Program-made: the position numbers and the translations under genes
Notes under the pieces: model-generated
What the model was told of the DNA's origin: nothing
Database searches by the model: none
Seen by the model: only the letters and a program-made list of their open reading frames with translations
Part shown: positions 2,547 through 59,339 of the stretch, in pieces
How the letters are laid out: the number at the start of each line of letters is the position of its first letter
Position numbering within the stretch: the first letter of the stretch is position 1
NCBI RefSeq assembly: GCF_016907535.1
Contig: NZ_JAFBCF010000001.1
Location: 2,604,001-2,668,000, forward strand
DNA: 64,000 nucleotides
Reading direction: 5' to 3'
Source of the DNA: Microlunatus panaciterrae
GTDB lineage: Bacteria; Actinomycetota; Actinomycetes; Propionibacteriales; Propionibacteriaceae

Positions 2547-2600
2547 CGAACGGCAGCGGGTGGCTCGGTTTGCGCCCCCAATCCGACCACTGGCTGCCAC
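2547..2600. repeat. 54-bp palindromic repeat, copy 1, bracketing a DUF559 gene
   Basis: The first 24 bases and last 15 bases are identical to the copy at 3710-3763, while the 15 central bases differ at about half of positions. GGCAGCGGGTGG near the start pairs with CCACTGGCTGCC near the end (11 of 12 positions, counting one G-U), so each copy can fold into a hairpin. This copy ends 5 bp from the stop codon of the minus-strand DUF559 gene. Confidence 0.85.
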
Positions 2601-2605
2601 TCGGC

Positions 2606-3637
2606 TCAGCCGAGCAGCGCCGTCTTGTCCGCGGCGGTCAGGGAGTCCCACGGATCGTCCCACCACTCCGGTGGCCGGATCGTCCACCGGTCCCGACTCC
2701 GGTCACGCTGGAGACCGCGCCGATGGGCTGCTCGCAGCCGCTGCCGCAGCTCCGCCCGGTGTCGGCGCAGGTCGAGGCTGTCGGCTCGCGTGACCACCAG
2801 GCCGAGCGCCTCGAACTTCTCCTCGCGTACGTTGTCGCGGTTGTGCTGGTCCCGGAGCCGATGGCCCTGCCCGTCGAACTCGGTCACCAGGCCGGCCTCG
2901 AGGTCGAGCAGGTCGGGAACGCCGACGAGATTGCCCCGGAGGTCGAACAGCGGCTGGTTGACCAGCGGCTTCGGCAGACCGGCCTGCAGCAGATAGAACA
3001 GCCGCAGCCGTGACTCCCAGGTGCTCAGCGTGTTCGGATCGGCTAGGACGACCGCCCGTCGCGCCCTGGTGATCCACCGCTGACGGGCGGCGGTGCCGAT
3101 GTACCGCGCCAGGTCGCTGAGCTCGACGGTGCCGGCCTTCGACATCGCATCGAGGAACACGACGGCCTCCACCAAGTCTCGGGCCAGCCTGGCGCCGTCG
3201 AGGGCGGTGCGGAACGGACGCGTAACCCGGATGCCGCAGCGCTCGACCACCTGGTCGCCGGGAAGCTCGTCCCGCGAGTACCTGATCTTGTCGGTTGACT
3301 GTCGGCCGAGATCGGCACCGAGACAGATCTGGACCGGTTCCGGTCGCATGGTCCAGGGGTCGCGGCCGTCGAGCAGGTCGACACCCTGGATGAAGGCGGC
3401 GGCCCAGCCGCCGATCGCGCCCCGCTCGGTTACCAGCGGGTAGGCGTCCAGGATCCGCTGTGTCGTGGTCAGACCGACTACCGGATCGAGGGCGGGCGCG
3501 AAGTAGCCGCGGCTGGTGCTCCGCCACGCTCGACCTCGGGTCGACCCACGGCTCACCCCGGCCGACCTGAGCTCGGCGGCGGACCTCGGTCGATGGGCCT
3601 GCCGGAGCTCGGACTCGAATCGGGTCAATGTCCTCAT
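2606..3637 (-). CDS. DUF559/AbiEi-type nuclease-like protein 1
   Basis: The 343-residue protein has an N-terminal region resembling the AbiEi-type antitoxin/winged-helix proteins of actinobacteria (a LRSAGVSRGSTRGRAWRS-type segment followed by GYFAP). Its C-terminal domain has the order E208, PD242, E253-F-D255 expected of a PD-(D/E)XK (Vsr/DUF559) fold. The ATG at 3637 (MRTLTRFE) is chosen because residues upstream of it are encoded by the flanking repeat. The gene is alone, converges on isochorismate synthase and is enclosed by direct repeats at 2547-2600 and 3710-3763. Nuclease activity and a mobile role are inference; the family has no settled function. Confidence 0.75.
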   Translation of the reverse strand: MRTLTRFESELRQAHRPRSAAELRSAGVSRGSTRGRAWRSTSRGYFAPALDPVVGLTTTQRILDAYPLVTERGAIGGWAAAFIQGVDLLDGRDPWTMRPEPVQICLGADLGRQSTDKIRYSRDELPGDQVVERCGIRVTRPFRTALDGARLARDLVEAVVFLDAMSKAGTVELSDLARYIGTAARQRWITRARRAVVLADPNTLSTWESRLRLFYLLQAGLPKPLVNQPLFDLRGNLVGVPDLLDLEAGLVTEFDGQGHRLRDQHNRDNVREEKFEALGLVVTRADSLDLRRHRAELRQRLRAAHRRGLQRDRSRDRWTIRPPEWWDDPWDSLTAADKTALLG

Positions 3638-3709
3638 CTGCTCAGCCTGCGCCGCAGAGTGGGTGGGGAAAGAGGAGAGCGCCAAGGCTGTGGACAACGT
3701 GGTGCGCGT

Positions 3710-3763
3710 CGAACGGCAGCGGGTGGCTCGGTTCGAGCCCCGATCAGGACCACTGGCTGCCAC
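3710..3763. repeat. 54-bp palindromic repeat, copy 2, upstream of DUF559 gene 1
   Basis: Direct-repeat partner of 2547-2600, with the same length, identical ends and a diverged centre. It lies 72 bp before the ATG of the DUF559 gene. Confidence 0.85.
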
Positions 3764-3810
3764 CCGATGCTCGAGCGTGGCCCGTTCATGGAAGGAACCA
3801 CGGGACAGGT

Positions 3811-3840
3811 GATTTACGCAAGGATGTGATCACGTAAATC
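3811..3840. promoter_or_regulatory. Inverted repeat upstream of the nuo operon, possible operator
   Basis: GATTTACG at 3811-3818 and CGTAAATC at 3833-3840 form a perfect 8-bp inverted repeat with a 14-bp spacer, which also contains most of the smaller palindrome GTGATCAC (3827-3834). The sequence is AT-richer than its surroundings and lies about 340 bp before nuoA. Binding by a regulator is inference. The rest of 3638-4182 (545 bp) holds the DUF559 repeat, this site and a possible leader ORF, and no other gene that I can support. Confidence 0.35.
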
Positions 3841-4003
3841 TGGGAGATATCCCTTGCAGGACAGGGGAATCGCCGAGCCGACAGATGGCCACCCGGATGA
3901 CGGGCGAGTACCGATGGTCATAGACTGTCCCAGAGATAGTGAAGGAATTCACGAGCGCGGGACGTCCCCGGACGCCTTTCCGAAACAACTAGCAGGAGTG
4001 ACG

Positions 4004-4186
4004 ATGTCAGCAGCCTTGATCGGGTTGCGCCACGGCCCGTCGACAGGCCCTGGGTCTGTTGTCTCCTCGTCCTCCGGGCTCGGCGACTTGACGCCGTGCC
4101 GACTTGACGCTGCGATGGACAGGTTGAGCCACGCCCAGCGCCAGATGTCACCCCTCCCACCAAACCGAAGGGTAGCTAGCCGGTGA
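4004..4186 (+). CDS. Possible 60-residue leader ORF coupled to nuoA
   Basis: An ATG at 4004 follows AGGAG with a 5-nt spacing, and the frame runs 60 codons to a TGA whose first two bases lie inside the nuoA GTG (GTGA overlap). The translation (MSAALIGLRHGPSTG...) has no recognisable family. The good ribosome site and the exact stop-start overlap are what one expects of translational coupling, but the composition is not clearly protein-like, so this may be chance. Confidence 0.25.
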   Translation: MSAALIGLRHGPSTGPGSVVSSSSGLGDLTPCRLDAAMDRLSHAQRQMSPLPPNRRVASR

Positions 4187-4542
4187 ACCCCTATGTGCCG
4201 ATCATCGTCTTGTTCGCGATCGCCGCGGGCTTCGTTGCGCTGACGATCATCACCAGCCTGCTCGTCGGGCCCGGCCGCTACAACCGGGCCAAGTACGACT
4301 CGTACGAGTGCGGGATCGAGCCCACGCCGCAGCCGGTGGGCGGTGGCCGGTTCCCGGTGAAGTACTACATCACCGCGATGCTGTTCATCGTGTTCGACAT
4401 CGAGATCGTCTTCCTCTACCCGTGGGCGGTGGCCTTCGACAGCATGGGCGTGTTCGCGCTGGTCGAGATGGTGCTGTTCATTGCGACGGTCTTCGTCGCC
4501 TACTTCTACGTGATGCGCCGGGGAGGCCTGGAATGGGACTGA
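4183..4542 (+). CDS. nuoA: NADH-quinone oxidoreductase subunit A
   Basis: Small membrane subunit of complex I, 119 residues with three hydrophobic helices. The family signature SYECGIEP sits in the first loop, followed by KYYITAMLFIVFDIEIVFLYPWA with the conserved acidic residues of helix 2. It contacts NuoH and the quinone channel. It is the first gene of a same-strand operon running to at least 20.0 kb; the GTG start overlaps the stop of a possible leader ORF. Confidence 0.97.
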   Translation: MNPYVPIIVLFAIAAGFVALTIITSLLVGPGRYNRAKYDSYECGIEPTPQPVGGGRFPVKYYITAMLFIVFDIEIVFLYPWAVAFDSMGVFALVEMVLFIATVFVAYFYVMRRGGLEWD

Positions 4543-4605
4543 CCTCCGGCACCCTGCCCCCGGCACCGGGCACCACTGGCACGCAACCAAGAAGCGAGGA
4601 CTGAT

Positions 4606-5163
4606 ATGGGTGGCGTTGAAGAGAAGCTCCCGAGCGGCGTCCTGCTGACCACTCTCGAGGGCCTGTTCGGCTACATGCGCAGTGCGTCGTTCTGGCCGGC
4701 CACCTTCGGCCTGGCCTGCTGTGCGATCGAGATGATGACGTACGGCGCTCCGCGTTACGACTCCGGCCGCTGGGGCCAGGAGGTCTTCCGGGCCTCACCG
4801 CGCCAGGCCGACCTGATGATCGTCGCCGGCCGGGTGAGCCAAAAGATGGCCCCGGTACTGCGCCAGATCTACGACCAGATGCCGAACCCCAAGTGGGTGC
4901 TGGCGATGGGGGTCTGCGCCAGCTCGGGCGGCATGTTCAACAACTACGCGATCGTCCAGGGCGTCGACCACGTCGTCCCGGTGGACATCTACCTGCCTGG
5001 CTGCCCGCCGCGACCGGAGATGTTGATCGACGCCATGTTCAAGCTGCGGGACAAGGTGGCGCACACGCCGATCGGCATCAACGCCGAGAACGCCCAGACC
5101 GAGGCCGAGCAGGTCGCGCTGGAGGCGCCGGCCACGCACGAGATGAAGGGGCTGCTGCGGTGA
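4606..5163 (+). CDS. nuoB: NADH-quinone oxidoreductase subunit B
   Basis: Carries the terminal N2 [4Fe-4S] cluster that passes electrons to quinone. In the 185-residue product the adjacent cysteines C38-C39 (LACCAIEMM), the GVCASSGG cysteine and the PGCPPRPE cysteine supply the usual four ligands. It begins 63 bp after nuoA and overlaps nuoC at its TGA. A second, diverged NuoB-like gene occurs at 55254. Confidence 0.98.
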
Positions 5164-5974
5164 CTGAGGACAAGACTCCGGAGACCGGCGCGCCGGTGCA
5201 GCCCGAGCCGGCCCTTCCGGTGACCGGCAACCCGGCCCCGGTGACCCCGCCGGCGCCCGACATCTCCTCCGAGGACTCCGAGGCGGCCACCGCCGAGATC
5301 GAGAAGATGCAGGTCGCACCCGGTCGTACCGAGGTGCTGGCGACCCGCAAGGGCATGTTCGGCGTCCGCGGCACGGGCGACACCTCCGGCTATGGCGGCC
5401 TGACCAGGGTGGTCGAGTTCCCGGCCGGCTCGCAGCCGCCGTTCGGTGGCTGGTACGACCAGGTCTACGACCGGGTCGGCGCGCTCGTCCCCAACTACGG
5501 CGAGGTGATCACCAAGGTCGTCATCCACCGCGGTGAGATCACCTTCCACGTGGCCCGTGAGCACCTGCCCGTGCTGGTGCGGCATCTGCGTGACGACGCG
5601 CATCTGCGGTTCGAGTTCTGCAGCAGCGTCTCCGGCGTCAACTACCCGGCGGACACCGGCGCTGAGCTGCACGCCGTCTACCACCTGCAGTCCATGACCT
5701 ACAACCGCAGGCTCCGGCTCGAGGTGTCCGCACCCGACTCGGACCCGCACATCCCCTCCGTCGTGTCGACCTATCCCACTGCGGACTGGCACGAGCGGGA
5801 GACGTTCGACATGTTCGGCATCATCTTCGACGGACACCCGGCGCTGACCCGGATCCTGATGCCCGACGACTGGCCCGGCCACCCGCAGCGCAAGGACTAC
5901 CCGCTCGGCGGGATCCCGGTGGAGTACAAGGGCGCCACCATTCCGCCACCTGATCAGCGGAGGAGCTACAACTG

Positions 5975-5975
<1 letters not shown>
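5160..5975 (+). CDS. nuoC: NADH-quinone oxidoreductase subunit C
   Basis: The 30-kDa peripheral subunit (271 residues). The GTG at 5160 overlaps the nuoB stop (GTGA). The first 85 residues are Pro/Ala/Glu-rich, longer than in most NuoC proteins. The core follows, ending in the signature [15 protein letters not shown] and [13 protein letters not shown] with [10 protein letters not shown]. NuoC packs against NuoD and NuoB. It overlaps nuoD by one base. Confidence 0.96.
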
Positions 5976-7326
<1,351 letters not shown>

Positions 7327-7330
<4 letters not shown>

Positions 7331-8076
7331 GCGGCGAGCACGGCATGAAGACCCACTTCGAGGACTCCGGTGGTGTCGACTTCTCCGGTGACCAGACCAC
7401 CATGATCACCGAGAAGACGCTGGAGGAGATGCGCCAGATCGCGGCCCGCTACCCGCAGCCGCGGTCGGCGCTGCTGCCGATGCTGCACCTGGTGCAGAGT
7501 GTGGAGAACCGGGTCACCCCGGCCGGGATCGAGGCCTGCGCGGAGATCCTGGGCATCTCGACCGCGGAGGTCAGCGGCGTGGCCACCTTCTACACCATGT
7601 ACAAGCGCAAGCCGATGGGTGAGTACCACGTCGGGGTCTGCACCACGGCCCTCTGCGCGATCATGGGCGGCGACGAGGTGCTGGCCAGCCTGCAGGACCA
7701 CCTGGGTGTGGGCAATGACGAGACCACCGAGGATGGCAAGATCACCCTCGAGCACCTGGAGTGCAACGCCGCCTGCGACTTCGCGCCGGTGATGATGGTC
7801 AACTGGGAGTTCTTCGACAATATGACCCCCGACTCCGCCAGGGAGGTCGTCGACCGGCTCCGCAACGGCGAAGAGGTATCCGCCACCCGCGGTGCCCGGG
7901 TCTGCAAGTGGACCGAGGCCGAGCGGGTGCTGGCCGGCTTCCCCGACGGCCGGGCCGACGAGGGCCCCACCGCTGGTGCGCAGTCGCTGCTGGGTCTCAA
8001 GATCGCACGCGACAACGGCTGGCAGGCGCCTGAGGTGCCGGCAGCGGGGCAGCAACACGCAGAGGAGGGCAAGTGA
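7327..8076 (+). CDS. nuoE: NADH-quinone oxidoreductase subunit E
   Basis: The 24-kDa thioredoxin-like subunit (249 residues) carrying the off-path N1a [2Fe-2S] cluster. Ligands are visible as CTTALC (C-x4-C) and CNAAC (C-x3-C). The tail after about residue 190 is longer than in the E. coli protein, as is common in actinobacteria. The ATGA overlap with nuoD and the GTGA overlap with nuoF support the start and end. Confidence 0.97.
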
Positions 8077-9398
8077 CCGACACACTGACTCCGGTCCTCA
8101 CCGCCAACTGGGGCGACGACCGGGCCTGGAAGCTCTCCAACTACGAGCGCACCGGCGGCTACAAGGCCCTCCGGACCGCCCTCGCCATGCAGCCCGATGA
8201 GGTCGTGTCGCTGGTCAAGGACTCCGGCCTGCGCGGACGAGGGGGCGCCGGCTTCCCGACCGGGATGAAGTGGTCGTTCATCCCCAAGAACAACCCGAAC
8301 CCCACCTATCTGGTGGTGAACGCCGACGAGTCCGAGCCGGGCACCTGCAAGGACATCCCGCTGATGATGGCCAGCCCGCACACGCTGGTCGAAGGGGTGA
8401 TCATCTCCGCGTACGCGATCAAGGCTAAGTACGCCTTCATCTACGTCCGTGGTGAGGTCCTGCACGTCATCCGCCGGGTGCAGCAGGCGGTCCGTGAGGC
8501 GTACTCGGCCGGTTACGCCGGGCGGAACATCCTCGGCACCGGCGTCGACCTGGAGATCGTGGTGCACGCCGGCGCGGGCGCCTACATCTGCGGCGAGGAG
8601 ACGGCCCTGCTGGACTCGCTGGAGGGTCGGCGCGGGCAGCCCCGGCTACGACCGCCGTTCCCGGCTGTGGCCGGTCTCTATGCCAGCCCGACGGTGATCA
8701 ACAACGTCGAGTCGATCGCCTCGGTGCCCTGCATCGTGGCCAACGGCGACACCTGGTTCAGCTCGATGGGTACCGAGAAGTCGAAGGGCATGACGATCTA
8801 CTCGCTGTCCGGGCACGTCGCCAACCCGGGCCAGTTCGAGGCACCGATGGGGATCACCCTGCGTCAGCTGCTCGACCTTGCCGGTGGGATGCGTAACGGC
8901 GGCCAGTTGAAGTTCTGGACCCCCGGCGGCTCGTCCACCCCGATCCTGACCGACGAGCACCTCGACATCCCGCTCGACTACGAGGGCGTGGCCGCGGCCA
9001 AGTCGATGCTCGGCACCAAGGCGCTGCAGTGCTTCGACCAGACCACCTCGGTGGTCCGGGCCGTCAAGCGCTGGACCGAGTTCTACAAGCATGAGTCGTG
9101 CGGCAAGTGCACCCCCTGCCGGGAGGGCACCTGGTGGCTGGTCCAGATCCTCACCCGGATGGAGGCCGGTCAGGGTCAGGAGGGCGACATCGAGAAGCTG
9201 TTGGATCTCTGCGACAACATCCTCGGCCGGTCGTTCTGCGCGCTGGCCGACGGCGCGGTGTCGCCGATCGCCTCGGCCATCCAGTACTTCCGAGAGGAGT
9301 TCGAGGCCGCGATGCACACCCCGGCCTGGGAGCTGTTCCCGTACGAGAAGAGCTCGCTGTTCACCAAGACGGACGCCGAATCTGGAGCGACGGTATGA
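8073..9398 (+). CDS. nuoF: NADH-quinone oxidoreductase subunit F
   Basis: The NADH-oxidising subunit (441 residues). It shows the FMN/NADH glycine-rich segment [13 protein letters not shown], the [12 protein letters not shown] loop, the [13 protein letters not shown] motif, and the N3 cluster ligands [12 protein letters not shown] with a later cysteine in the [12 protein letters not shown] stretch. It overlaps nuoE and nuoG by 4 bp each. Confidence 0.98.
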
Positions 9399-11854
9399 CA
9401 GTCACCACCGACACCAAGAAGTCCGACGACCTCGCTCCGCGTGAGGACCTGATCACCCTGACCATCGACGATGTCGAGGTCTCGGTGCCCAAGGGGACGC
9501 TGGCGATCCGGGCCGCCGAGCTGATCGGCATCGAGATCCCGCGCTTCTGCGACCACCCGCTGCTGGACCCGGTCGGCGCCTGCCGGCAGTGTCTGGTCGA
9601 GGTGCCCGACGCCGGTAACGGCCGGGGGATGCCCAAGCCGCAGGCCTCCTGCACCCTCGAGGTGGCGCCCGGCATGCAGATCAGGACCCAGCTGACCTCG
9701 CCGGTGGCCGACAAGGCCCAGCACGGTCAGATGGAGTTCCTGCTGATCAACCACCCGTTGGACTGCCCGATCTGCGACAAGGGCGGTGAGTGCCCACTGC
9801 AGAACCAGGCGATGTCGAACGGCCGCGGCGAGACCCGGTTCGAGGGTGTCAAGCGGACCTACCCCAAGCCGATCAACATCTCCGCCCAGGTGCTGCTGGA
9901 CCGGGAGCGGTGCATCCTCTGTGCCCGCTGCACCCGGTTCTCCGAGCAGATCGCCGGCGACCCGTTCATCGCCCTGGTGGAGCGCGGTGCACTGCAGCAG
10001 GTCGGCATCTACGAGAAGGAGCCGTTCGAGTCGTACTGGTCGGGCAACACGATCCAGATCTGCCCGGTCGGCGCCCTGACCAGTGCCGCCTACCGGTTCC
10101 GGTCCCGGCCGTTCGACCTGGTCTCCACTCCGTCGGTCGCTGAGCACGACGCCTGCGGGTCGGCCATCAGGGTCGACCACCGGCGCGGCACCGTCATGCG
10201 TCGGCTGGCCGGTGACGATCCCGAGGTCAACGAGGAGTGGATCACCGACAAGGACAGGTTCGCCTTCCGCTACGGCCGCGGTGACGACCGTCTCACCCGA
10301 CCGCTGGTCCGGGACGGGGAGGTGCTGCGGCCCGCCTCCTGGCAGGAGGCACTCGACGTCGTTGTCGCCGGTCTGCAACGCGCGGCTGGCGCGGTCGGGG
10401 TGCTCACCGGTGGCCGGCTGACGGTCGAGGATGCCTACGGCTACTCGAAGTTCACCCGGATGGTGCTCGGCACCAATGACATCGACTTCCGCTCCCGGCC
10501 GCACTCGGCCGAGGAGGCCGACTTCCTGGCGGCCGCTGTGGCCGGCACCGGCCGCGGCGTGACCTTCGCCGACCTCGAGCGGGCCTCGTCGGTGCTGCTG
10601 GTGGCGCTGGAGCCCGAGGAGGAGGCCGGGATGATCTTCCTGCGGCTCCGCAAGGCGTTCCGGAAGAGGGGGCTGAAGTCGTGGACACTCGCCCCCTTCC
10701 GCAGCAACGGCGCCCGGAAGATGGGCGCAACGGTGATCAAGACCGTGCCCGGTGCCGAGGCAGAGGCGTTGGCCGCCCTGCCGGAGGAGGTGCTGCTGGA
10801 CGCCGAGTCGATCATCCTGGTCGGTGAGCGCGCTGCTGGTAGCTCGGGTGCACTGACCGCCGCGTTGGACCTCAGCCGGAGCACCGGCGCCCGGTTGGCC
10901 TGGGTGCCACGGCGGGCGGGCGACCGCGGCGCGGTGGAGGCGGGCTGCCTGCCGAACCTGCTGCCCGGTGGTCGACCGGTGGCCGACGCTGCCGCCCGCG
11001 TCGACACCCAGACCACCTGGGGGGCTGGCTCGCTGCCGGCTCTGGAGGGCCGCGACGGCGACGAGATCCTGCTGGCCGCAGCCGACCATGAGCTGAAGGC
11101 GCTGGTGGTCGCCGGTGTCGACCCGGTCGACTTCATCGACCCGCAGTCGGTCCTTGCCGGTCTCGAGGAGAGCGACTTCGTGGTCAGCATCGAGACCCGG
11201 GCCTCTGCCGTCACCGAACGCGCCAACGTCGTGTTCCCGGTGGCCCTGATCGAGGAGCGCTCCGGCACCTTCATCAACTGGGAGGGCAGGGAGCGTCCGT
11301 TCGAGGTGGTGATCAAGCAGGCCAACCCGATGACCGACCTGCGCGTCCTGGCCGCGCTGGCCGACGCGCTCGGCAAGGATCTCGGCGTTCGCTCCGCAGC
11401 TCAGGCGCGGGCCGAGCTGGCCGAGCTCGGACGCTGGGACGGCGACCGCGCCGCCGCACCGCAGATCGGCGCCGGTCGCCCCGGCGCTGCCGAGGACAGC
11501 ACCGCCGTTCTCGCCACCTGGCGGCTCGGCCTGGACGACTCGCGGGCGATGGCCGGCGAGCCGCATCTCGCGGCCACCGTTCGCAGGCCGGTGGCACGGC
11601 TCAGCCCGGCCACCGCCGCGGCAGCCGGCATCACCGACCGGGTGAGCGTCTCGAACGACCGCGGTGCCGTCAGCTTCCCGGTGGAGATCGTCGACGACAT
11701 GGTCAACGGAGTCGTCTGGATCCCGACCCGCTCAGCCGGAATGGGCGTCGGCGAGCATTTGGCCACCACCGCCGGTGATGTGGTACGGATTGGCCCTGCC
11801 GCGCTGACCGCCGACGTGGCCCCAGCTGAGCAGAGAGAGGGGAGTGTCGTATGA
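9395..11854 (+). CDS. nuoG: NADH-quinone oxidoreductase subunit G
   Basis: The large iron-sulfur subunit (819 residues). The ATG at 9395 overlaps the nuoF stop; an in-frame ATG 99 codons upstream lies inside nuoF. The N-terminal [2Fe-2S] domain has [18 protein letters not shown]. The next clusters use [13 protein letters not shown] and [11 protein letters not shown], and ICPVGAL follows. The rest is the molybdopterin-oxidoreductase-like domain, which in complex I has no molybdenum. It passes electrons from NuoF toward NuoI. It overlaps nuoH by 4 bp. Confidence 0.97.
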
Positions 11855-14976: not shown

Positions 14977-14986
14977 GAGGACCAAG

Positions 14987-21072: not shown

Positions 21073-21096
21073 GTTTCCCAAGTCGACTTGGGAAAC
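21073..21096. repeat. Perfect 24-bp palindrome after the polyprenyl synthase gene
   Basis: The half-site GTTTCCCAAGTC is followed directly by its exact reverse complement, GACTTGGGAAAC. It overlaps the left arm of the hairpin at 21090-21141. It could be part of the terminator or a dimeric protein site. Confidence 0.7.
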
Positions 21097-36544: not shown

Positions 36545-36841
36545 GAAAAGTCGTCACATGCTGACTTTCTTTCGCCCGGACTCGGTGGGGCTGCCGGAGG
36601 CGCGGGCGCGTGTCGAAAAGTCGTCACGTGCTGCGGTCTGTGCTCGTACCCTCGGGACAGAGAGCGAAAAAGTCGTCACGTGCTGCGTCGTGGGTCGTGG
36701 TCGGCCCGCCAGCGCAAAAGTCGCGTTCTGATGAGTTCTGTACCGGGAAGAGCGCTCAGGTCCCGGAGATGTCGCGTTCTGATGACTTCTGTATGGGAGG
36801 AGCGCTCAAACCCCGCAGAAAAGTCGCGTTCTGATGAGTTT
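36545..36841. repeat. Non-coding array of six short repeats (two types)
   Basis: Three A units (GAAAAGTCGTCACRTGCTG) begin at 36545, 36615 and 36667, and three B units (core GTCGCGTTCTGATGA) have their cores at 36720, 36771 and 36823. Consecutive units are 48-52 bp apart except the first gap (70 bp). The B units carry further shared sequence including GAGCGCTCA, so B is a tandem duplication with a period near 52 bp. It fills most of the 378-bp gap between two converging genes. No protein frame is convincing. Function unknown. Confidence 0.8.
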
Positions 36842-49393: not shown

Positions 49394-49474
49394 GGCTCAG
49401 GGCACGTGGACCGCCGGCTCAGGGCACGTGGATTCCGGCTCAGGGCACGCGGACCGCCGGCTCAGGGCACGTCC
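49394..49474. repeat. Tandem repeat, four copies of a 21-22 bp unit
   Basis: The unit starts GGCTCAGGGCACG at 49394, 49416, 49437 and 49459. Copies 1 and 3 extend with NGGACCGCC, copy 2 is one base shorter and copy 4 is cut off after 16 bases. It follows directly on a hairpin that resembles the same CTTCGACAGGCTCAGG family. Located 70-150 bp before a dehydrogenase gene. Confidence 0.8.
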
Positions 49475-51028: not shown

Positions 51029-51149
51029 CTCGAACAGGCGGTCCAGCGAGTCCTGTGGCTTGAACAGGGTGCCACCCCATCTCTCGTGGTTGCAGCGGCC
51101 GGTCGGAATGATCAGAGCCCAACCTACGCCGGGCCCGCGGAGATGCCGC

Positions 51150-52076
51150 TCAGACCGGTTCGGGTACGACGTCGCGGGCCTTGCGGTTGGCGTTCGCCCT
51201 GGCGAACACCGAGGCGGTCAGCACCGCCAGGGCGACCCACACCAGTCCGAAACCGACCCACCGTCCGGTCGACATCGACTCGTGGAACAGCAGCACACCG
51301 AGCAGGAACTGGAAGGTCGGCGTCATGTACTGCAGCAGACCGATCGTGCTCAGCGGCACCCGGGTCGCCGCTGCCGCGAAGAACAGCAGTGGCACCACCG
51401 TCACCAGCCCACCGGAGACCAGCAGCAGGCTGTGGGCCCAACCGAGATGGCCGAACGTGAGGCGGCCGACCAGCTGCAGGTGGATGAGGTAAGCCAGCGC
51501 CGGCAGCACCAGGAAGGCTGACTCGACCGTCAAGGTCTCGATCGCGCCGGCGTTGATCTGCTTCTTCAGTACTCCGTAGCTGGCGAAGCTGACCGCCAGG
51601 GCCAGCGCGATCCAGGGTGGGTGACCGTAGTCGATGGTCAGCACGACCACCGCCACGGCGGCGATACCGACAGCGACCCATTGCATCACGGGCATCCGCT
51701 CACCGAGGAAGATGACGCCGACCAGGATCGACAGCAACGGGTTGATGTAGTACCCGAGGGCGGTCTCGACGACGTGTCCGTTGTTCACGCCCCAGATGTA
51801 GACACCCCAGTTGACCGAGATCGCGGCCGCAGCCAGGCCGAGCAGAAGCAGGCTGCGGCGGCTGGCGAGCCGTCCGAACCAGCCACGCGGGAGGAAGACG
51901 AACGACAGGATGACCGCGACCAGCAGGGACCAGACGATCCGGTTCGCCAGGATCTCCAGCGCGCCGGCCCGCTTGACCAGAGGCCAGAACAGCGGCACCA
52001 GCCCCCAGATCCCATAGGCGCCGAGTCCGTAGAGCACGCCGCGGCGCACCCGGGGGTCGGGGTCATGGCCGGTCAT
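51150..52076 (-). CDS. rarD: RarD-like EamA transporter
   Basis: A ten-helix drug/metabolite transporter (308 residues). The RarD signature is GVLYGLGAYGIWGLVPLFWPLVKRAGALEILANRIVWS at the N-terminus, followed by WGVYIWGVNNGHVVETALGYYINPL. The substrate of the family is not established. It begins at ATG 52076, 34 bp after the korB stop, and may be co-transcribed with korAB. Confidence 0.9.
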   Translation of the reverse strand: MTGHDPDPRVRRGVLYGLGAYGIWGLVPLFWPLVKRAGALEILANRIVWSLLVAVILSFVFLPRGWFGRLASRRSLLLLGLAAAAISVNWGVYIWGVNNGHVVETALGYYINPLLSILVGVIFLGERMPVMQWVAVGIAAVAVVVLTIDYGHPPWIALALAVSFASYGVLKKQINAGAIETLTVESAFLVLPALAYLIHLQLVGRLTFGHLGWAHSLLLVSGGLVTVVPLLFFAAAATRVPLSTIGLLQYMTPTFQFLLGVLLFHESMSTGRWVGFGLVWVALAVLTASVFARANANRKARDVVPEPV

Positions 52077-52110
52077 GGTCGACGATCCTCCGGGCGCGCC
52101 GGCCCCGCGG

Positions 52111-53199
52111 TCAGCGCACAGTCCAGGTGTCGCCGCCGGCCACCATGCGCTGCAGGGCGTCGTCGTCGCCGCCCTGGGCCGACGCCAGCGCGACCTGTTC
52201 GCGAGCGAGGTCGTCGTAGGTGGGCAGCTCGACGCTGCGGAAGATCCCGATCGGGGTCCGGTTCAGCACACCGGAGTCGGTCAGCCTGGACAGCCCGAAC
52301 GCGTACGACGGGTCACTGCGATGGGCATCGTGCACCACCAGCGACTCGACGCCGACAGCGGCGACCTCGACGACGCGGAACTCACCCGACACCGGGTCGC
52401 GGGTCACTCCCAGCCGGCCGTCGTTGCCGAAGACGATCGGCTCGCCGTGACGGAGCGGGATGATCGCGTCCGCCGAGGTGTCGTTGTCCTTGAGGGCGTC
52501 AAAGGCGCCGTCGTTGAAGATCGGGCAGTTCTGGTAGATCTCCACGAACGACGTGCCGCGGTGCGCCGCGGCCGCCCGGAGCACCTCGGTCAGGTGCTTG
52601 CGGTCGGAGTCGATGGTCCGGGCCACGAAGGTGCCCTCGGCGCCGAGCGCCAGCGACACCGGGTTGAACGGGTTGTCCAGCGAGCCCATCGGCGTGGACT
52701 TGGTCACCTTCCCCAGCTCGGAGGTGGGGGAGTACTGGCCCTTCGTCAGACCGTAGATGCGGTTGTTGAACAGCAGGATCGTCATATTCACGTTGCGGCG
52801 CAGCGCGTGGATGAGGTGGTTGCCGCCGATCGACAGCGCGTCGCCGTCGCCGGTCACCACCCAGACGCCCACATCCGGACGGCTGGTGGCGACACCGGTG
52901 GCGATCGCCGGCGCCCGACCATGGATCGAGTGCATGCCGTAGGAGTCGACGTAGTAGGGGAAGCGTGATGAGCAGCCGATGCCCGACACGATCACCGTGT
53001 TCTCCTTGGTGATCCCCAGCTCCGGCATGAACCCCTGGAACGCCGCCAGCACCGCGTAGTCACCGCAGCCGGGACACCAGCGCACCTCCTGGTCGGAGGT
53101 GAAGTCCTTGCGGTTCAGCGGCTCGAGCGACAGCGGCACGCCGGCCAGACCCGGGTAGGTCACACCGTTCGGTGCGGGCTGCTTGGTGGGGGCGGTCAC
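52111..53199 (-). CDS. korB: 2-oxoacid:ferredoxin oxidoreductase, beta subunit
   Basis: The thiamine-diphosphate and iron-sulfur-bearing subunit (362 residues). It has RWCPGCGDYAVL (cluster cysteines), the metal/diphosphate motif GDGDALSIGGNHLIHALRRN with NNRIYGLTKGQYSPTS, and GIGCSSRFPYYVDSYG. With KorA it oxidatively decarboxylates a 2-oxoacid, probably 2-oxoglutarate, to the acyl-CoA while reducing ferredoxin. It overlaps korA by 4 bp. Confidence 0.95.
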   Translation of the reverse strand: MTAPTKQPAPNGVTYPGLAGVPLSLEPLNRKDFTSDQEVRWCPGCGDYAVLAAFQGFMPELGITKENTVIVSGIGCSSRFPYYVDSYGMHSIHGRAPAIATGVATSRPDVGVWVVTGDGDALSIGGNHLIHALRRNVNMTILLFNNRIYGLTKGQYSPTSELGKVTKSTPMGSLDNPFNPVSLALGAEGTFVARTIDSDRKHLTEVLRAAAAHRGTSFVEIYQNCPIFNDGAFDALKDNDTSADAIIPLRHGEPIVFGNDGRLGVTRDPVSGEFRVVEVAAVGVESLVVHDAHRSDPSYAFGLSRLTDSGVLNRTPIGIFRSVELPTYDDLAREQVALASAQGGDDDALQRMVAGGDTWTVR

Positions 53200-55109
53200 T
53201 GCGGTGCTCCTTGAAGGTCGTCGATCTCCCGTTCGAGATCGAGTGCGAGTTCGCTGAGGGAGATCGGCAGCCCGCGGACCCGCGAATAGCTGTGCACGTC
53301 CACGAGGTACTTCGCCCGCAGCATCATCGCCAGCTGGCCGAGGTTCATCTCGGGCACGATCACCCGGTCGTAGGACCGCAGCACCTCACCCAGGTTCGCC
53401 GGGAACGGGTTCAGATGCCGCAGATGGGTCATGGCGACCCTGCGGCCCGTCTTGCGGACCCGGCGGACTGCGGCGACGATCGGCCCGTAGGTCGATCCCC
53501 AGCCGAGCACCAGCACCCGCGCCCCCCGGCCGGCCGAACCGCTGCCGGCCGCACCGTTGACATCGGGGGTCGGGTCGTCGACGACCAGGTCGGGGATGTC
53601 GCGCACGATGCCGTCCACCTTCGCCTGCCGGGTGCGCACCATCTCGTCATGGTTGGCCGGGTCGTACGACACGGCGCCGGTGTCCTTGGCCTTCTCGATG
53701 CCACCGATCCGATGCTGCAGGCCGGGGGTACCCGGCTTCGCCCACGGGCGGGCCAGCGTCTCGGCGTCGCGCAGATACGGCAGGAAGGTCGGTTGGCCCT
53801 TCGCGTCGGTGCTGTTCGTCTCGGTGGCGAAACCGGGGTCGATCGGCGGGATCAGCGAGAGGTCCGGCACCTGCCACGGCTCAGCACCGTTGGCGATGTA
53901 ACCGTCGGACAGCACGATGACCGGCGTACGGTACTTGACCGCGATCCGGGTCGCCTCGATCGCGGTGTCGAAGCAGTCGGCCGGCGACTGGGCGGCGAGC
54001 ACCGGCACCGGGGCCTCCCCGTTGCGCCCGAACATCACCTGCAGCAGGTCGGCCTGCTCGGTCTTGGTGGGCATGCCGGTGCTGGGCCCGGCGCGCTGGA
54101 TGTCGCAGACCACCAGCGGCAGCTCCGTCATGACTCCCAGTCCGATGGTCTCGGCCTTGAGCGCGATGCCGGGCCCGGACGTGGTGGTGACCCCCAGGTG
54201 GCCGGCGAAACTGGCGCCGAGGGCGGCCCCGACTCCGGCGATCTCGTCCTCGGCCTGGAAGGTGGTGACGCCGAAGCGCTTGTGCTTCGAGAGCTCGTGC
54301 AGCACATCGGAGGCGGGCGTGATCGGGTAGGCGCCGAGGAAGAGCGGCAGCCCGGCCTTCTTGGAAGCCGTGACCAGTCCGTACGCGAGCGCGAGGTTGC
54401 CCGAGATCTGCCGGTACTGCCCCGGCGGCATCGGTGCCGGCGCGACCTCGTAGGTGACGGCGAACACCTCGGTCGTCTCGCCGAACGCGTACCCGGTCTT
54501 GAAGGCGGTGATGTTGGCGTCGCGGATGGCGGGCTTGTTGGCGAACTTGCTGCTCAGGAAGCTGAGGGTGCCCTCGACCGGGCGGTGGTACAGCCAGGAC
54601 AGCAGCCCGAGCGCGAACATGTTCTTCGACCGCGACGCGTCCTTGCGGGAGAGGTGGAAGTCCTTGACCGCAGCTACCGTCATCCCGGTCAGGTCCAGGG
54701 CGTGCAGTTGATAGTCCGCGAGGGAGTCGTCCTCGAGCGGGTTGGTGTCATAGCCCACCTTGGCCAGGTTGCGCTTGGTGAAGTCGGCGGTGTCGGCGAT
54801 GATCACCCCACCCCGCGGCAGGTCGGCGATGTTGGCCTTCAACGCCGCAGGGTTCATCGCCACCAGGACGTCCGGCCGGTCACCGGGGGTCATGATGTCG
54901 TAGTTGGCGAAGTGCAGCTGGAAGCTGGACACCCCGGGGAGCGTCCCCTGCGGTGCCCGGATCTCTGCCGGGAAGTTGGGCAAGGTCGAGATGTCATTGC
55001 CGAAGACGGCCGAGTCGGCGGTGAACCGGTCACCGGTCAACTGCATGCCGTCGCCGGAGTCGCCTGCGAAACGGATGACTACTCGGTCGAGGGTGTGAAC
55101 CTGTTTCAC
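53196..55109 (-). CDS. korA: 2-oxoacid:ferredoxin oxidoreductase, alpha subunit (gamma-alpha fusion)
   Basis: About 637 residues, with the gamma domain first (RFAGDSGDGMQLTGDRF) and then the pyrimidine-binding alpha domain (LGAYPITPASDVLHEL), as in actinobacterial KorA. The GTG at 55109 (VKQVHTLDRVV) fits homologous N-termini and has GAAGG upstream; an ATG at 55145 is 12 codons longer but has a purine stretch directly against it. It is divergent from the mini-Nuo trio, with about 110-145 bp between them. Confidence 0.94.
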   Translation of the reverse strand: MKQVHTLDRVVIRFAGDSGDGMQLTGDRFTADSAVFGNDISTLPNFPAEIRAPQGTLPGVSSFQLHFANYDIMTPGDRPDVLVAMNPAALKANIADLPRGGVIIADTADFTKRNLAKVGYDTNPLEDDSLADYQLHALDLTGMTVAAVKDFHLSRKDASRSKNMFALGLLSWLYHRPVEGTLSFLSSKFANKPAIRDANITAFKTGYAFGETTEVFAVTYEVAPAPMPPGQYRQISGNLALAYGLVTASKKAGLPLFLGAYPITPASDVLHELSKHKRFGVTTFQAEDEIAGVGAALGASFAGHLGVTTTSGPGIALKAETIGLGVMTELPLVVCDIQRAGPSTGMPTKTEQADLLQVMFGRNGEAPVPVLAAQSPADCFDTAIEATRIAVKYRTPVIVLSDGYIANGAEPWQVPDLSLIPPIDPGFATETNSTDAKGQPTFLPYLRDAETLARPWAKPGTPGLQHRIGGIEKAKDTGAVSYDPANHDEMVRTRQAKVDGIVRDIPDLVVDDPTPDVNGAAGSGSAGRGARVLVLGWGSTYGPIVAAVRRVRKTGRRVAMTHLRHLNPFPANLGEVLRSYDRVIVPEMNLGQLAMMLRAKYLVDVHSYSRVRGLPISLSELALDLEREIDDLQGAPQ

Positions 55110-55241
55110 CCGCGTCTGCCTTCTTCCTGAGTGCGGTCGTGACATTCCCTGGGATGGCTGGTTGCCCGGTCACAACTCTGTCCATGATAAGTCGGCCGGT
55201 GGAACCGCCCGGCACCATCCATCAGCCGGACGGCGCCGTAC

Positions 55242-55247
55242 TAGCCT
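55242..55247 (+). promoter_or_regulatory. Predicted -10 of the mini-Nuo operon
   Basis: TAGCCT, then 6 nt and the GTG at 55254. No ribosome site is visible. It lies in the korA/mini-Nuo divergent region. Confidence 0.5.
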
Positions 55248-55253
55248 GACGGC

Positions 55254-55685
55254 GTGGCTGGTTTGCAGTGGATTGACTGGTACGGCGACGGTCGCGTCAT
55301 CGTTGTCGACGTCGGACTGGCCTGCTGCACACTGGAGTTCGAGTCCGCGGCAGCCGCCCGCGGCCGCCCGACGACGGCCCAGCCGCCCGCGCTGTCGGCG
55401 GACAGCCAGGTGGTGGTGGTCGTGTCCGGCACCGTCACCGACCGGCTCGCCCCAGCCGTCGCCGCCGTCGTCGATGCCGCCAGCGACCTGACGGGAACCA
55501 GGCCGTACGTCATCTCGTTCGGCGCCTGCGCTTCCAGCGGTGGCCCCTACTGGGACTCGTACGCAGTGACCAAGGGGATCGACCAGCTGGTCGACGTCGA
55601 CCTCTACCTGCCGGGATGCCCGCCGCCGCCAGAGGCGCTGCAGGCCGTCCTGGACCGGCTGAGCACCGCCGGGTCGGCGCGATGA
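55254..55685 (+). CDS. NuoB-like protein of a mini complex I module
   Basis: A 143-residue relative of complex I subunit B (and of NiFe-hydrogenase small subunits). All four cluster N2 ligands are present: C24-C25 (LACCTLEFE), C92 (FGACASSGGPYW) and C122 (PGCPPPPEAL). It is shorter than NuoB (185 residues) and clearly diverged from it. First of three overlapping genes; no NuoD-like gene is present to complete a quinone site. It may bind electrons from ferredoxin reduced by KorAB. Role inferred. Confidence 0.88.
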   Translation: MAGLQWIDWYGDGRVIVVDVGLACCTLEFESAAAARGRPTTAQPPALSADSQVVVVVSGTVTDRLAPAVAAVVDAASDLTGTRPYVISFGACASSGGPYWDSYAVTKGIDQLVDVDLYLPGCPPPPEALQAVLDRLSTAGSAR

Positions 55686-56248
55686 GCTCCACGAGCGAGC
55701 GCCGGGTCCCTGCCGTCGACTGGGTCAGCAGCGTGGCCGCGCTGAAGGATGCGGGATTCGACTACTTCGACTGGCTCGGCTGTGTCGACGAGATCGGCCG
55801 CGCCGATGAGCTCGCCATCGTGCTGCGGCTGCTCAACCTCACCGCTGGTGGGGCCGTCCTGGTCACGACCCGGGTGCCTCGCTCGGCCCCGGTGCTGGCG
55901 AGCCTGCGTACGGTCTTCGCCGGCGCCACCTGGCACGAGCGGGAGGCGGCCGAGCTGTTCGGGGTCGAGTTCGCCGGTGGTGACCGACGACGGCTGCTGC
56001 TCAGCCCGGAGTACGAGGGCACCCCGCTGCGCAAGGACGAGGTGCTGGCCGCCCGCTCCACGCTCGGCTGGCCGGGCGCCAAGGAGCCGGGCGAGTCGGT
56101 GGCGGCGCCGAGCCGGCGCCGGATGGTGCCGCCCGGGGTGCCCGACCCCGCCGTGTGGGGCGACCGGGACCCGGCGAGCGGACCGGCCGACCCGACCGAG
56201 GTGGCGGCCTCCGCCGTCGGCGGCCGGGTCCGGCGGAGGACCCGGTGA
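55682..56248 (+). CDS. NuoC-like protein of a mini complex I module
   Basis: 188 residues, with the 30-kDa subunit signature: [38 protein letters not shown]. In NuoC the comparable stretch ends the core domain, so the fold is complete but the N-terminus is short (about 70 residues). A proline-rich tail follows. ATGA overlap with the NuoB-like gene and GTGA overlap with the NuoI-like gene. Confidence 0.86.
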
Positions 56249-56571
56249 CCAGCCACGGCTCGATCGTCCTGGTCGAGTCCAACTGCACGTCGTGCATGAT
56301 CTGCGCGCGCGAATGCCCGAGCTGGTGCATCACGATCGACTCCCACACCGAACCGGTGGCCGACCTACCCCCGGGCGCGCGTGATCGGACCGTCAACGTC
56401 CTCGACCGGTTCGCGATCGACTGGTCGCTCTGCATGTACTGCGGCATCTGCGTCGAGGAGTGCCCGTTCGACGCCCTGCACTGGTCCGACCGGCTGGCAC
56501 TGCCCGGCGGCACGCTGCACGAGCTGGTGCACGAGATCGAGGACCTGGCGCCGCGCAGCGGCCGGCCCTAA
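56245..56571 (+). CDS. NuoI-like two-cluster ferredoxin of a mini complex I module
   Basis: A 108-residue ferredoxin-like protein with two complete 4Fe-4S motifs: [12 protein letters not shown] and [12 protein letters not shown]. It resembles the core of NuoI without its N-terminal amphipathic membrane-associated helices or its tail. The GTG at 56245 overlaps the preceding stop. Its own stop overlaps that of the convergent GH20 gene by 4 bp. Confidence 0.87.
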
Positions 56572-58145
56572 CCGTGCAGGTGCGCCTCCGGTCGCTGCAG
56601 TGCCCCGGTGCCGCCCTGCTGCCAGGGGTGCGGACCGGACTCCGGGCGGTAGTTCACCCCGGCCGCATCCAGTCGCTCCAGGTGCCCCGCCAACCGGCCG
56701 GAGAACTCGGCCCAGGAACGACCGTCCGGCTTCGACCAGGCGACCTCGCTGTGGGCGCAGGCGCGGGGGAACAGCATGTACTGCACCCGCCGCATGTTCG
56801 GCATGTACTCGGTCCAGATCTGGCACTGGGTGCCGAGGATCTTCGGGTGGGACCCGGCCGGGATCTCGTTCAGCGGGTCCAGCGCGTAGGCCTGCTCGGT
56901 GGTGATGCCACCACCGATGCTGTACGGCTCGGTCGCCTCCGGGCTCGGGTAGTAGTCGAAGTAGGTGTGCGACGACGGCGACATCACGACCTCACCGCCG
57001 GCGGCGGCAGCATCGACGCCGTACTGGGCCTTCCGCCAGGCCATCGTGACGGCGCCCTCGAGGTGGCCCTCGTCATTGATCTCGTCCCAGCCGACGAGCT
57101 GGCGCCCGCGCGCAGCCAGCCAGTCCCGCAGCTGTCCGGTGAACCACTGCTGCAGATGGTCGGGGCCCGCGAGCCCGCGCTGCTCGGCGAGCGCCTTGGC
57201 GGCCGGGCTGGCCAGCCACTCGGTGCGGGGGCACTCGTCACCGCCGACATGCACGTAACGGCTGGGGAAGATCTCCAGCAGCTCCTCGTACAGGTCGAAG
57301 ACGAAGCTGACGGCGTCGTCGGAGAGGTTGAGCACCTCGTCGAAGATCCCGAAGGTGGTTGCCGGCGCGTAGGTCTTCGACGGGTCGTTGCTCAGCTCGG
57401 GGTAGGCCGCCAGCACCCCGAGCACGTGGCCGGGGAACTCCAGCTCAGGGACGATCGTGATGCCGCGCTGGTCGGCATAGCTGACCAGCGAACGGAGCTG
57501 GTCCTGGGTGTAGAAGCCCCCGTGCGGGGTGCCGTCGCCTCGGTCGTCCTTCGGCCTCCGCGTCTCCGCGCGGTGGCTGCCGACCTCCTGCAGCCGCGGG
57601 TACTTCTTGGACTCGAACCGCCAGCCCTGATCCTCGGTGAGGTGCAGGTGGAAGACGTTGTACTTGTGGGCGGCGAGCTGGTCGATGAACGCGTAGAGAT
57701 CCTGCAGCGGCATGAAGTGGCGGGCCGTGTCGAGCATCACGCCGCGCCAGCCGAACCGCGGCTGGTCCTCGATCACGACTGCCGGCAGCTCCAGGTCGCC
57801 GCCGCTGGGGGCGGACCGGAACACGCTCGGCCCCAGCAGCTGCCGCAGGGTCTGCACAGCCCAGTTGACCCCGCGGTCGTCCGCTGCCGCGATCTCGACA
57901 CCGTCGGCCGTCACGGTCAGGCGGTAGCCCTCGGCGGGCAGGGTGTCATCCTCGACGATCGCGAGGGCGCCGGTCTCGGAGCGGGGCAGCTCCAGCCCGG
58001 TGCCCGGAGCGAGCAGCCGACGGGCGATGGCGGCCCACTCGGGGGTGGCGGCGATGCCGAGATCCTTCGGGAGCGCGTAGGAGCCCTGCTGCAGTTGGAC
58101 CGAGCTGGGCTGGGGGACGAGATTCAGTGGGGCGCCTGCAGGCAT
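56568..58145 (-). CDS. Beta-N-acetylhexosaminidase (GH20)
   Basis: Glycoside hydrolase of 525 residues that removes terminal N-acetylglucosamine/galactosamine. It has the small N-terminal GH20b domain ([17 protein letters not shown]), then the barrel with [23 protein letters not shown] and the catalytic D303-E304 in [12 protein letters not shown]. No signal peptide, so it probably acts on imported chito-oligosaccharides or cell-wall fragments. GGAAGG precedes the ATG. Confidence 0.95.
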
Positions 58146-58222
58146 TGATCTGACCTTCCGCGATGGATTGGGCTGACTCGGCCCACCCTACCGACGGCCA
58201 CCCGCGCGGCGGCGGGGGCTGT

Positions 58223-58306
58223 CGCAGAGGTCACTTTCGTCCGACTCCGCCGCTGGGGCGCAGCCGCGTCAGTCGCCGCCATCCACAGACGAGGGTGACA
58301 TCTGCG
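58223..58306. repeat. Palindromic repeat upstream of DUF559 gene 2 (68-bp core, copy 1)
   Basis: The core at 58231-58298 starts TCACTTTCGTCCGAC and ends GACGAGGGTGA. Extended arms 58223-58241 and 58288-58306 (19 nt) pair with one mismatch and two G-U pairs. A copy with the same 68-bp length and matching ends is at 59271-59338. It lies 68 bp before the ATG of the DUF559 gene. No other gene is seen in 58146-58366. Confidence 0.75.
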
Positions 58307-58366
58307 CCCATCCACAGCCGGCCCACTCCGGTGCACGATCGGAGGCGGCAGCCGCAATGTCCGGTC

Positions 58367-59266
58367 ATGGGAGACCTCACTGACGTTCAAGGAGAGATCG
58401 CGCTGCTGCTGCGGCAGGCGCAGGGTGTGATCGCCGTCCGCGACCATCCGAGGCTGGCCAGGTCGGTCGGCCGGCTGGCGGCACGCGGGGCCCTGGTGCG
58501 GCTGTTGCCGGGGGTCTATGTCGCAGCCGGACTCGAGCAGGATGTGTTGACCCGAATCCGTGCCGCGGCCCGGTGGGACCCGGACATGGTGCTTTTCGGG
58601 GCAGCCGCAGCATGGGTGTCGTTCTGGCCGACCGTGCCGGTGGCCGTCGTCGAGCTCGTCACCAGGCAGCGACGGATCCAACCGACGGGCTTCCACCTCA
58701 GCCGTCGACTCATCCCGGCCGAGCTGGTGGTGGAACGTCGCGGGCTGCGGTTCACCAGCCCGGCGCTTACTGCGCTCGACCTCTGCTGCACCCCCCTCGG
58801 CGGGAATGGCATCGACGTCGCCCTGCGGAGCCGTGCGACGACCCTTGCAGCCATGCGCGGTGCCTTGGAACTGACGAGGAACCGGAGAGGGAACGGCGAT
58901 CGGCGTGAGTTGTTGCTGGACTCACGGGATGCCCCGTGGTCGGAAGCGGAGAGGCTGGCGCACCGGCTGTTGCGCGCCGCCGGGATCACCGGCTGGCGCA
59001 GCAACCAGCCGATCCGCACCGCCGACCGCACCTACTGGGGAGACATCGTTTTCGAACGCGAGCGTCTGGTGCTGGAGATCGACGGGCGGGCCTTCCACGA
59101 CGGGGACCACCCGGCCGCAAGGGAGACCTTCGAGAACGACCGTTGGCGGCAGAACCGGCTGGTGCTGGCCGGGTGGCGGGTGATCCGCATCACCTGGTCG
59201 ATGCTCAACCAGCATCCCGACCAGGTGGTCGCACTCGTCCGGCAGGCCCTGGAGCATTCTGTCTGA
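58367..59266 (+). CDS. DUF559-type nuclease-like protein 2
   Basis: 299 residues. The N-terminal half looks like the AbiEi-type winged-helix/antitoxin region (ARGALVRLLPGVYVAAG), and the C-terminal domain carries the PD-(D/E)XK/Vsr-like residues E193/E195, D226 (WGDIVFE) and E237-I-D239 (LEIDGRAFH), then FENDRWRQNRLVLAGWRVIRITW, a classical DUF559 end. It is bracketed by direct copies of a palindromic repeat. Activity untested; paralogous in architecture, not sequence, to the gene at 2606. Confidence 0.8.
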   Translation: MGDLTDVQGEIALLLRQAQGVIAVRDHPRLARSVGRLAARGALVRLLPGVYVAAGLEQDVLTRIRAAARWDPDMVLFGAAAAWVSFWPTVPVAVVELVTRQRRIQPTGFHLSRRLIPAELVVERRGLRFTSPALTALDLCCTPLGGNGIDVALRSRATTLAAMRGALELTRNRRGNGDRRELLLDSRDAPWSEAERLAHRLLRAAGITGWRSNQPIRTADRTYWGDIVFERERLVLEIDGRAFHDGDHPAARETFENDRWRQNRLVLAGWRVIRITWSMLNQHPDQVVALVRQALEHSV

Positions 59267-59269
59267 AAA

Positions 59270-59339
59270 ATCACCCTCGTCCGACGGCGCCGCCGCCGGC
59301 GCGGAGGCGTGCCAAGCCTGGTCAGCCGACGAGGGTGAT
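59270..59339. repeat. Palindromic repeat after DUF559 gene 2 (copy 2), also a likely terminator
   Basis: ATCACCCTCGTC (59270-59281) and GACGAGGGTGAT (59328-59339) are perfect complements, with an inner GC-rich stem. The core 59271-59338 has the same length (68 bp) and ends as 58231-58298. It begins 4 bp after the DUF559 stop. Read on the minus strand, the stem is followed by TTTTT, so it can also end transcription of the gene at 59347-59694. Confidence 0.75.

Follow-up and report, generated by a model that had tools for sequence, protein, structure and literature searches.

What binds a solitary nuclease gene to the palindromes on either side of it? The question is raised by a 64,000-nucleotide stretch of the genome of Microlunatus panaciterrae (RefSeq assembly GCF_016907535.1, contig NZ_JAFBCF010000001.1, positions 2,604,001 to 2,668,000; referred to here as the window), in which two DUF559-type genes, gene 1 and gene 2, each lie between two copies of a palindromic repeat. 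Comparison of loci and genomes reveals that such flanking pairs are restricted to this gene class among the open reading frames (ORFs) tested, that the palindrome arms covary with the protein and keep a conserved spacing, that in several genomes the variant found at the enzyme is also the dispersed one, and that gene and repeat are jointly absent from two congeners. The reading favoured here, with a probability of about 0.55 for the whole chain, is that these loci would be units of an enzyme and its cognate palindrome, similar to the REP/RAYT systems (repetitive extragenic palindromes and their associated tyrosine transposases) and built on a non-homologous nuclease. For dispersed bacterial palindromes, PMC3733652 either invokes RAYT transposases or names no enzyme. 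If the reading is true, a class of nucleases that is frequent in these actinobacteria and mostly annotated as DUF559 would supply many natural enzyme/target pairs, a large and poorly known family would gain a role, and the spread of short palindromes without a transposase could be put to a test; with several pairs per genome, direct specificity-swap comparisons would be possible.

Palindromic repeats on both sides of DUF559-type genes

A first-pass annotation of the window had placed both genes between palindromic direct repeats with conserved complementary ends and a diverged centre, and repeat comparison together with palindrome tests bears this out (Table 1). The gene 1 copies (2544-2603 and 3707-3766) are 85% identical over 60 nt when the flanks are compared, each gene 2 copy measures 68 nt, and the complementary ends and diverged centre are readable in all four copies. 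With starts assumed at the ATG at 3637 (minus strand) and the ATG at 58367 (plus strand), gene 1 is separated by ~72 bp from its upstream repeat and by ~5 bp from its downstream one, and gene 2 by ~68 and ~4 bp, respectively. The shared geometry of ~70 and ~5 bp claimed earlier thus holds for the window genes and fails as a rule for the class, in which the downstream palindrome starts anywhere from ~70 bp before to ~60 bp after the stop codon and copies may also be inverted (locus L010) or arranged in tandem arrays (L005). For gene 2, plain flank-to-flank alignment does not rise above the null (score 30, the maximum of the shuffles also being 30), and the pair is accepted because the palindrome tests support it: four mismatches in a 12-mer palindrome test, a result also reached by 3/254 own-genome controls, and a four-arm score of 52, reached by 2/415 controls.

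Searches with both window proteins and PF04480 bring the number of DUF559-type genes in this genome, a single contig of 4.07 Mb, to ten. By reading of the flanks, nine of the ten have palindromic repeats on both sides, of a sequence particular to each gene; L004 is weak. The repeat reads TTGGCGGGCT...AGCCCGCCAA at L007, GGAGCGCGGAA... at L003 and CTGTGGGCGGGAT... at L016, while L009 has a pair of 67 nt copies, L010 two adjoining palindromes in inverted order, and L005 arrays of ~51 nt units that face each other on the two sides. Plain flank-to-flank alignment was rejected as a general test and replaced by palindrome-aware ones because it was clearly above shuffles at only four of the ten, namely L006 (73), L009 (104), L010 (44) and L007 (37). 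In the four-arm test, which is scored out of 60 and for which a cut of >=51 was chosen after the table had been seen, eight of the ten paralogues pass; L004 scores 50, a value reached by 5/415 controls, and L002 scores 48, its upstream copy lying beyond the flank searched. L002 passes the 12-mer mismatch test, which misses L004 and L009. At L002 the stretch between gene and upstream palindrome (2390-2520 of that locus) contains recurring CCTCACCCCGCGCCCTGAG-like units along with a CTTCGACAGGCTCA-type inverted repeat.

The same contrast extends to relatives. The tested set of 107 genes comprises the ten of this genome and 97 of 123 PF04480 places in relatives (99 fetched, two incomplete ones skipped, 24 not fetched), and the 415 control ORFs are made up of 254 own-genome ORFs and, in relatives, 161 ORFs next to the tested genes. 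A four-arm score >=51 is attained by 56/107 DUF559-type genes (48/97 in relatives alone) versus 2/415 controls, so that, as in REP/RAYT systems, a dedicated gene is flanked by its repeats. Other cuts give 59 genes versus 5 controls (>=50), 49 versus 2 (>=52) and 20 versus 0 (>=57). Nor are the two control passes independent, because both touch a DUF559 palindrome: L104:2744-3458 overlaps the DUF559 gene of its locus, while L125:4536-5511 lies next to one and has the same palindrome family. A first test, allowing <=3 mismatches over four 12-mers, was passed by 36/107 genes, 0/254 own-genome controls and 2/161 neighbour ORFs. Applied to a named set of 38 loci from a scan with close alignment of one Kribbella clade, two of which (L236 and L243) had already been included in the first set as L101 and L103, it was passed by 19, including 16/20 Kribbella-type loci (one record being labelled Streptomyces); L238 passes if four mismatches are allowed and L237 if five are, and L239 and L245 fail, palindromes being nonetheless readable there.

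The enzyme, its promoter and its matching arms

The protein is an AbiEi-antitoxin-like half fused to a Vsr/homing-endonuclease-like PD-(D/E)XK nuclease. In profile comparison the proteins match both the DUF559/MTES_1575 and the AbiEi models, with PADLOC AbiEi profiles matching the N-terminal half; the nuclease half is similar to Vsr and I-Bth0305I, and two folds are found, a catalytic one of Vsr type in which the active-site residues are conserved and an AbiEi-type antitoxin fold, the predicted structure of the gene 2 product likewise matching Vsr and AbiEi. The first-pass reasoning, which names a Vsr-like nuclease, does not describe the AbiEi-like half. Since the enzyme that defines REP/RAYT systems, a Y1 (HUH) tyrosine transposase, is here replaced by an AbiEi-Vsr/DUF559 nuclease, the units are not members of that group. 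They differ also from Vsr and from the homing endonuclease I-Bth0305I, labelled EDxHD in PMC6083498, in that the nuclease is fused to an AbiEi-like half and sits between two intact palindromes, and from the AbiE type IV toxin-antitoxin systems in that a nuclease is attached, repeats lie on both sides and are in some cases dispersed, and no AbiEii-like toxin gene stands beside genes 1 and 2, the two loci inspected for one. The Caulobacter VsrA is a similar DUF559/Vsr-like nuclease, discussed in PMC12907096 as a mismatch-repair endonuclease; nowhere in that paper does the string 'palindrom' appear.

Upstream of these genes is a recurrent element. Of 109 DUF559-type loci, 39 have an exact TTRTCCACA in the 5' flank, versus 0/240 own-genome control 5' flanks, and none has it in the 3' flank or the gene-body stretch; RTCCACAG is in the 5' flank of 63/109 versus 4/240. 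The longer motif resembles a DnaA box, and such an element may link expression to replication initiation. At gene 2 a second ATCCACAG box (58281-58288) falls within the upstream repeat itself. The position of the upstream palindrome, near the promoter and beside this element, speaks for an operator, and the main rival to the favoured reading holds that the AbiEi-like half represses its own gene through the palindromes while the nuclease acts elsewhere, for example in defence or mismatch repair, and that dispersed copies are a regulon or decoys. AbiEi antitoxins do autoregulate via inverted repeats, according to PMC7319586; the match of PADLOC AbiEi profiles to the N-terminal half and the discussion of VsrA as a repair endonuclease (PMC12907096) point the same way. 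Operators leave unexplained, however, the second copy at the 3' end, which often lies over the stop codon with the same spacing, the arrays on both sides of L005, the 165 dispersed matches of its family in one species, and the lack of any repeat in two congeners without gene 1. As a full account autoregulation is unlikely, although it could coexist with enzyme-plus-palindrome units.

That each enzyme is paired with its own repeat is highly probable, judging from how the two vary together. For 18 Kribbella-type loci (L239 and L245 dropped), arm identity between loci tracks protein identity with r 0.876, and 0/5000 permutations were as high. Arm identity is 0.87 within versus 0.69 between loci, the within value being inflated by the arm-picking procedure. 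Arms such as CCACCACACACCAA, CACTCACAAAG, AGGCCATCACAAT and CACCGCTGCACAT interchange between loci, alike on both sides of the gene, and at one syntenic place genome G036 has CCAACACTCACC arms where G024 has GCCATCAGTAC-type arms. Shared descent accounts for part of this correlation; what matters is that sites apart from one another change together. Along with the 56/107 versus 2/415, this covariation upholds the earlier proposal of a nuclease-centred element with an enzyme matched to its repeat. A comparison of protein parts with arm distance, in which the arms were not anchored, let no single domain stand out. With ten paralogues in a single genome, each surrounded by a repeat of its own, these units differ from REP/RAYT systems.

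A further difference from REP/RAYT is that arm spacing seems helix-phased. In 33/36 strict loci the arm spacings on the two sides of the gene agree to within 1 bp, while the palindrome centres diverge. Among 26 exact-arm pairs in Kribbella-type genomes, spacings are 62-63 (two pairs), 73-75 (21), 84-85 (two) and 118 (one); six of the pairs are flanking copies, L220 and L221 lie in one duplicated stretch, and the 118 involves a third arm. Steps of ~11 bp suggest that double-stranded DNA is read, a hint carried by only four pairs. The same steps count against palindromes that act as RNA hairpins at both transcript ends (in processing, stability or as an RNA partner of the nuclease), for which their place at both gene ends might speak, as might the downstream copy, where G-T mismatches outnumber A-C ones (61 versus 36); the upstream copy has no such excess (41 versus 46), orphan palindromes are not tied to the gene, and the hairpin account is very improbable. 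The duplicated stretch of 783 bp in G030, whose two copies (L220 791-1567 and L221 651-1427) are 96% identical and inverted relative to each other, contains further internal repeats and an orphan palindrome, and is perhaps another mobile element.

Dispersed copies, empty sites and a possible route of spread

Some repeat families also have copies scattered through the genome. The L005 family has 165 matches in its genome at <=3 mismatches versus one control match, and a stricter pattern finds 135 in the own genome and 0 in 19 congeners. In 489 kb of the own genome, in which orphans of the other families were sought, there are three of the L002 family, two of the L006 family, and seven of the L010 family at six places. 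A single arm pattern, searched in Kribbella-type genomes with flanking arms included in the variant counts, finds 19-41 arms in four of them and 7 and 12 in two others, compared with 0-1 arms in five genomes of another family without a match to the Kribbella-type enzyme. The variant at the enzyme is also the prevalent one in G027 (36/38 arms CCACCACTCA), G030 (28/41 CCACCACACA) and G039 (19/22 CCACCACTCA). At twelve orphan places (L220/L221 being a duplicate) the arms are conserved and the centres differ. Dispersed palindromes with conserved ends are thus present for some families only; together with the way arm similarity follows protein similarity, they strengthen the resemblance to REP/RAYT noted at first pass.

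Known systems share parts of this picture. Dispersed palindromes with conserved ends and a variable spacer, a single dedicated gene flanked by them, a mostly chromosomal location and partly vertical inheritance are all traits of REPINs and REP-RAYT, as described in PMC8049555 and PMC3733652. Loci L001, L007, L009 and L016 resemble the TIRtrons, single enzyme genes with their own terminal repeats whose enzyme is by contrast a tyrosine transposase, and the CGTC REPs are dispersed palindromes said to be without a dedicated transposase (both PMC3733652). In searches of open-licence literature, none of the titles and abstract openings tied palindromes, whether flanking or dispersed, to DUF559 or Vsr-like proteins, an earlier description being possible; defined by architecture alone, the system would be a non-homologous analogue of REP/RAYT.

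Inheritance and absence can be followed at a few sites. The enzyme gene has kept its place in G027, G036, G039 and G024 and, as judged chiefly from one flank, in G030, and inheritance there is therefore vertical; the G033 enzyme, 70% identical, sits elsewhere, between palindromes. Congeners G016 and G013 retain the neighbours of gene 1 without gene or repeat (stop to shared box, 14 and ~30 bp). No gene-1 homologue was found within 1.5 kb upstream of nuoA in the 19 congeners searched, and the chorismate-binding gene is in reach in only three, adjacent in L139 and L140 and with other DNA between in L147. An empty site with one repeat had been suggested as the thing to look for; the two congeners lacking gene 1 have no palindrome there, and are too diverged to reconstruct the target site that the gene of a homing endonuclease would have disrupted. 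Gene 2 is absent beside YajQ in 18/18 congeners with a YajQ match, which says little because neighbour order is not kept. A gene bounded by two similar sites, each conserved at its ends and diverged in the middle, and absent from two relatives together with its repeats, might be a site-specific-recombination cassette, an attC-like or dif-like module with its recombinase elsewhere, except that each gene of this genome has its own pair and no sites are shared between genes; a cassette is the least probable of the accounts considered.

A gene carried between two palindromes by chance, as a passenger on repeats that another enzyme moves, is another alternative. In its favour, the dispersed variant in G024 and G033 differs from the arms at the enzymes examined there, the nuclease is a mover by inference only, and the search for transposases covered Y1. 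The restriction of flanking to the DUF559-type class among tested ORFs, the tracking of protein similarity by arm similarity, the recurrence of distinct repeats at each of ten paralogues within a single genome, and the finding of Y1 transposase (PF01797) in 0/11 genomes speak against a passenger and make it improbable.

According to the favoured reading, each enzyme would recognize the arm sequences of its flanking palindromes and, for some, tens to >100 dispersed copies. The AbiEi-like half would read the arms as double-stranded DNA, the nuclease half would cut or nick at the palindrome, and repair would copy the palindrome, rarely the whole unit, to new sites, so that the nuclease would be the spreader of the repeats. 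A bolder form, in which this is a second, independently evolved REP-type spread, with a nuclease bearing an antitoxin-like DNA reader that copies cognate palindromes via double-stranded cuts and host repair, possibly replication-timed through the DnaA-box-like promoter element, and with many mutually orthogonal pairs per genome, is offered tentatively, the odds being somewhat against it.

Several observations weigh against enzyme-plus-palindrome units. A hydrolytic nuclease cannot join strands, and host repair must be invoked for that reason; all support is comparative; and neither the orphan at 21075, where the match ends at that point in eight congeners, nor the orphan L212 of G027, for which G039, G033 and G030 have the two flanks at distant places and G036 and G024 have one of them, yielded a clean insertion site or exact ends. 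The four-arm test is failed by 51/107 genes, and by 49/97 in relatives, which limits the first-pass proposal, although flanking repeats are common in the class and nearly absent at controls. Part of these failures are misses (L002, and L120, for which a score of 56 results when the test takes in all of the broken gene), and other failing genes may truly be without repeats; non-Kribbella loci of the named set, mostly Nocardioides, pass in only 3/18. Single-arm matches of the L006 family are not above control (293 versus 345), its two orphans resting on spacing and reading, and no right-spacing dispersed copies were found in the 489 kb for L001, L003, L007, L009 and L016. The reversed-pattern control gives 0-7 matches per genome. 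G036 has seven arms, of which its own variant accounts only for the four flanking ones, the other three being another variant, and it has no orphans. Of the arms in G024, 9/12 are CCAACACTCA, whereas those beside the frameshifted gene are of the GCCATCAGTAC type; in G033, 16/19 are CCACCACACA, but the two nearest intact enzymes (L180 and L185) have other arms. For both, loss of the cognate enzyme is assumed. Three of the six Kribbella-type genomes thus fit their own enzyme's variant, one is without orphans and two need the assumption of enzyme loss. That the frameshifted G024 gene had no flanking palindromes was considered and ruled out, a score of 56 being obtained across the whole broken gene with a different arm; this presence creates the mismatch with the dispersed arms of G024 and removes one argument for the reading.

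Features and neighbours in the window

Table 1. Positions in the window of the two DUF559-type genes, their repeats and boxes, and related orphan repeats
Feature	Position	Strand	Basis
Gene 1 downstream palindromic repeat, arms GGCAGCGGGTGG / CCACTGGCTGCC	2547..2600	-	Sequence reading, repeat comparison, four-arm test
Gene 1, AbiEi-like/DUF559-like nuclease	2606..3637	-	DUF559 match under Pfam cut-off; PD-(D/E)XK residues retained
DnaA-box-like TTGTCCACAG, between gene 1 and its upstream repeat	3688..3697	-	Sequence reading; box enrichment
Gene 1 upstream palindromic repeat	3710..3763	-	Sequence reading, repeat comparison, four-arm test
Orphan palindrome TTCCCAAGTCGACTTGGGAA, of the family flanking DUF559-type gene L010 of the same genome	21075..21094	.	
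Orphan tandem array of three units, from the same repeat family as the arrays on both sides of DUF559 gene L005	36713..36845	+	
Gene 2 upstream palindromic repeat, arms TCACTTTCGTC / GACGAGGGTGA	58231..58298	+	Reading, palindrome tests
ATCCACAG box, between gene 2 and its upstream repeat	58310..58317	+	Reading; box enrichment
Gene 2, AbiEi-like half (residues ~6-187) and Vsr/DUF559 nuclease half (~190-299)	58367..59266	+	
Gene 2 downstream palindromic repeat, ATCACCCTCGTC ... GACGAGGGTGAT	59271..59338	+	Reading, palindrome tests

Gene 1 is flanked by genes for a chorismate-binding enzyme (Chorismate_bind) and NuoA (Oxidored_q4), and gene 2 by those for a GH20 enzyme (Glyco_hydro_20) and a YtxH-like protein, followed by DUF520. 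Upstream of nuoA, an inverted repeat GATTTACG...CGTAAATC at 3811-3840, with similar sequences in the congener loci L139, L140 and L147, is perhaps an operator of the nuo operon. The small YtxH/CsbD-like protein encoded at 59347-59712 has internal repeats of 54 bp (18 residues), and such proteins adjoin YajQ in 7/18 congeners too. Directly adjoining the L005-type array, a AAAAGTCGTCACGTGCTG-like repeat occurs about three times at 36550-36700, and a tandem GGCTCAGGGCACG-type repeat at 49394-49472 consists of two 36-nt copies that are 97% identical.

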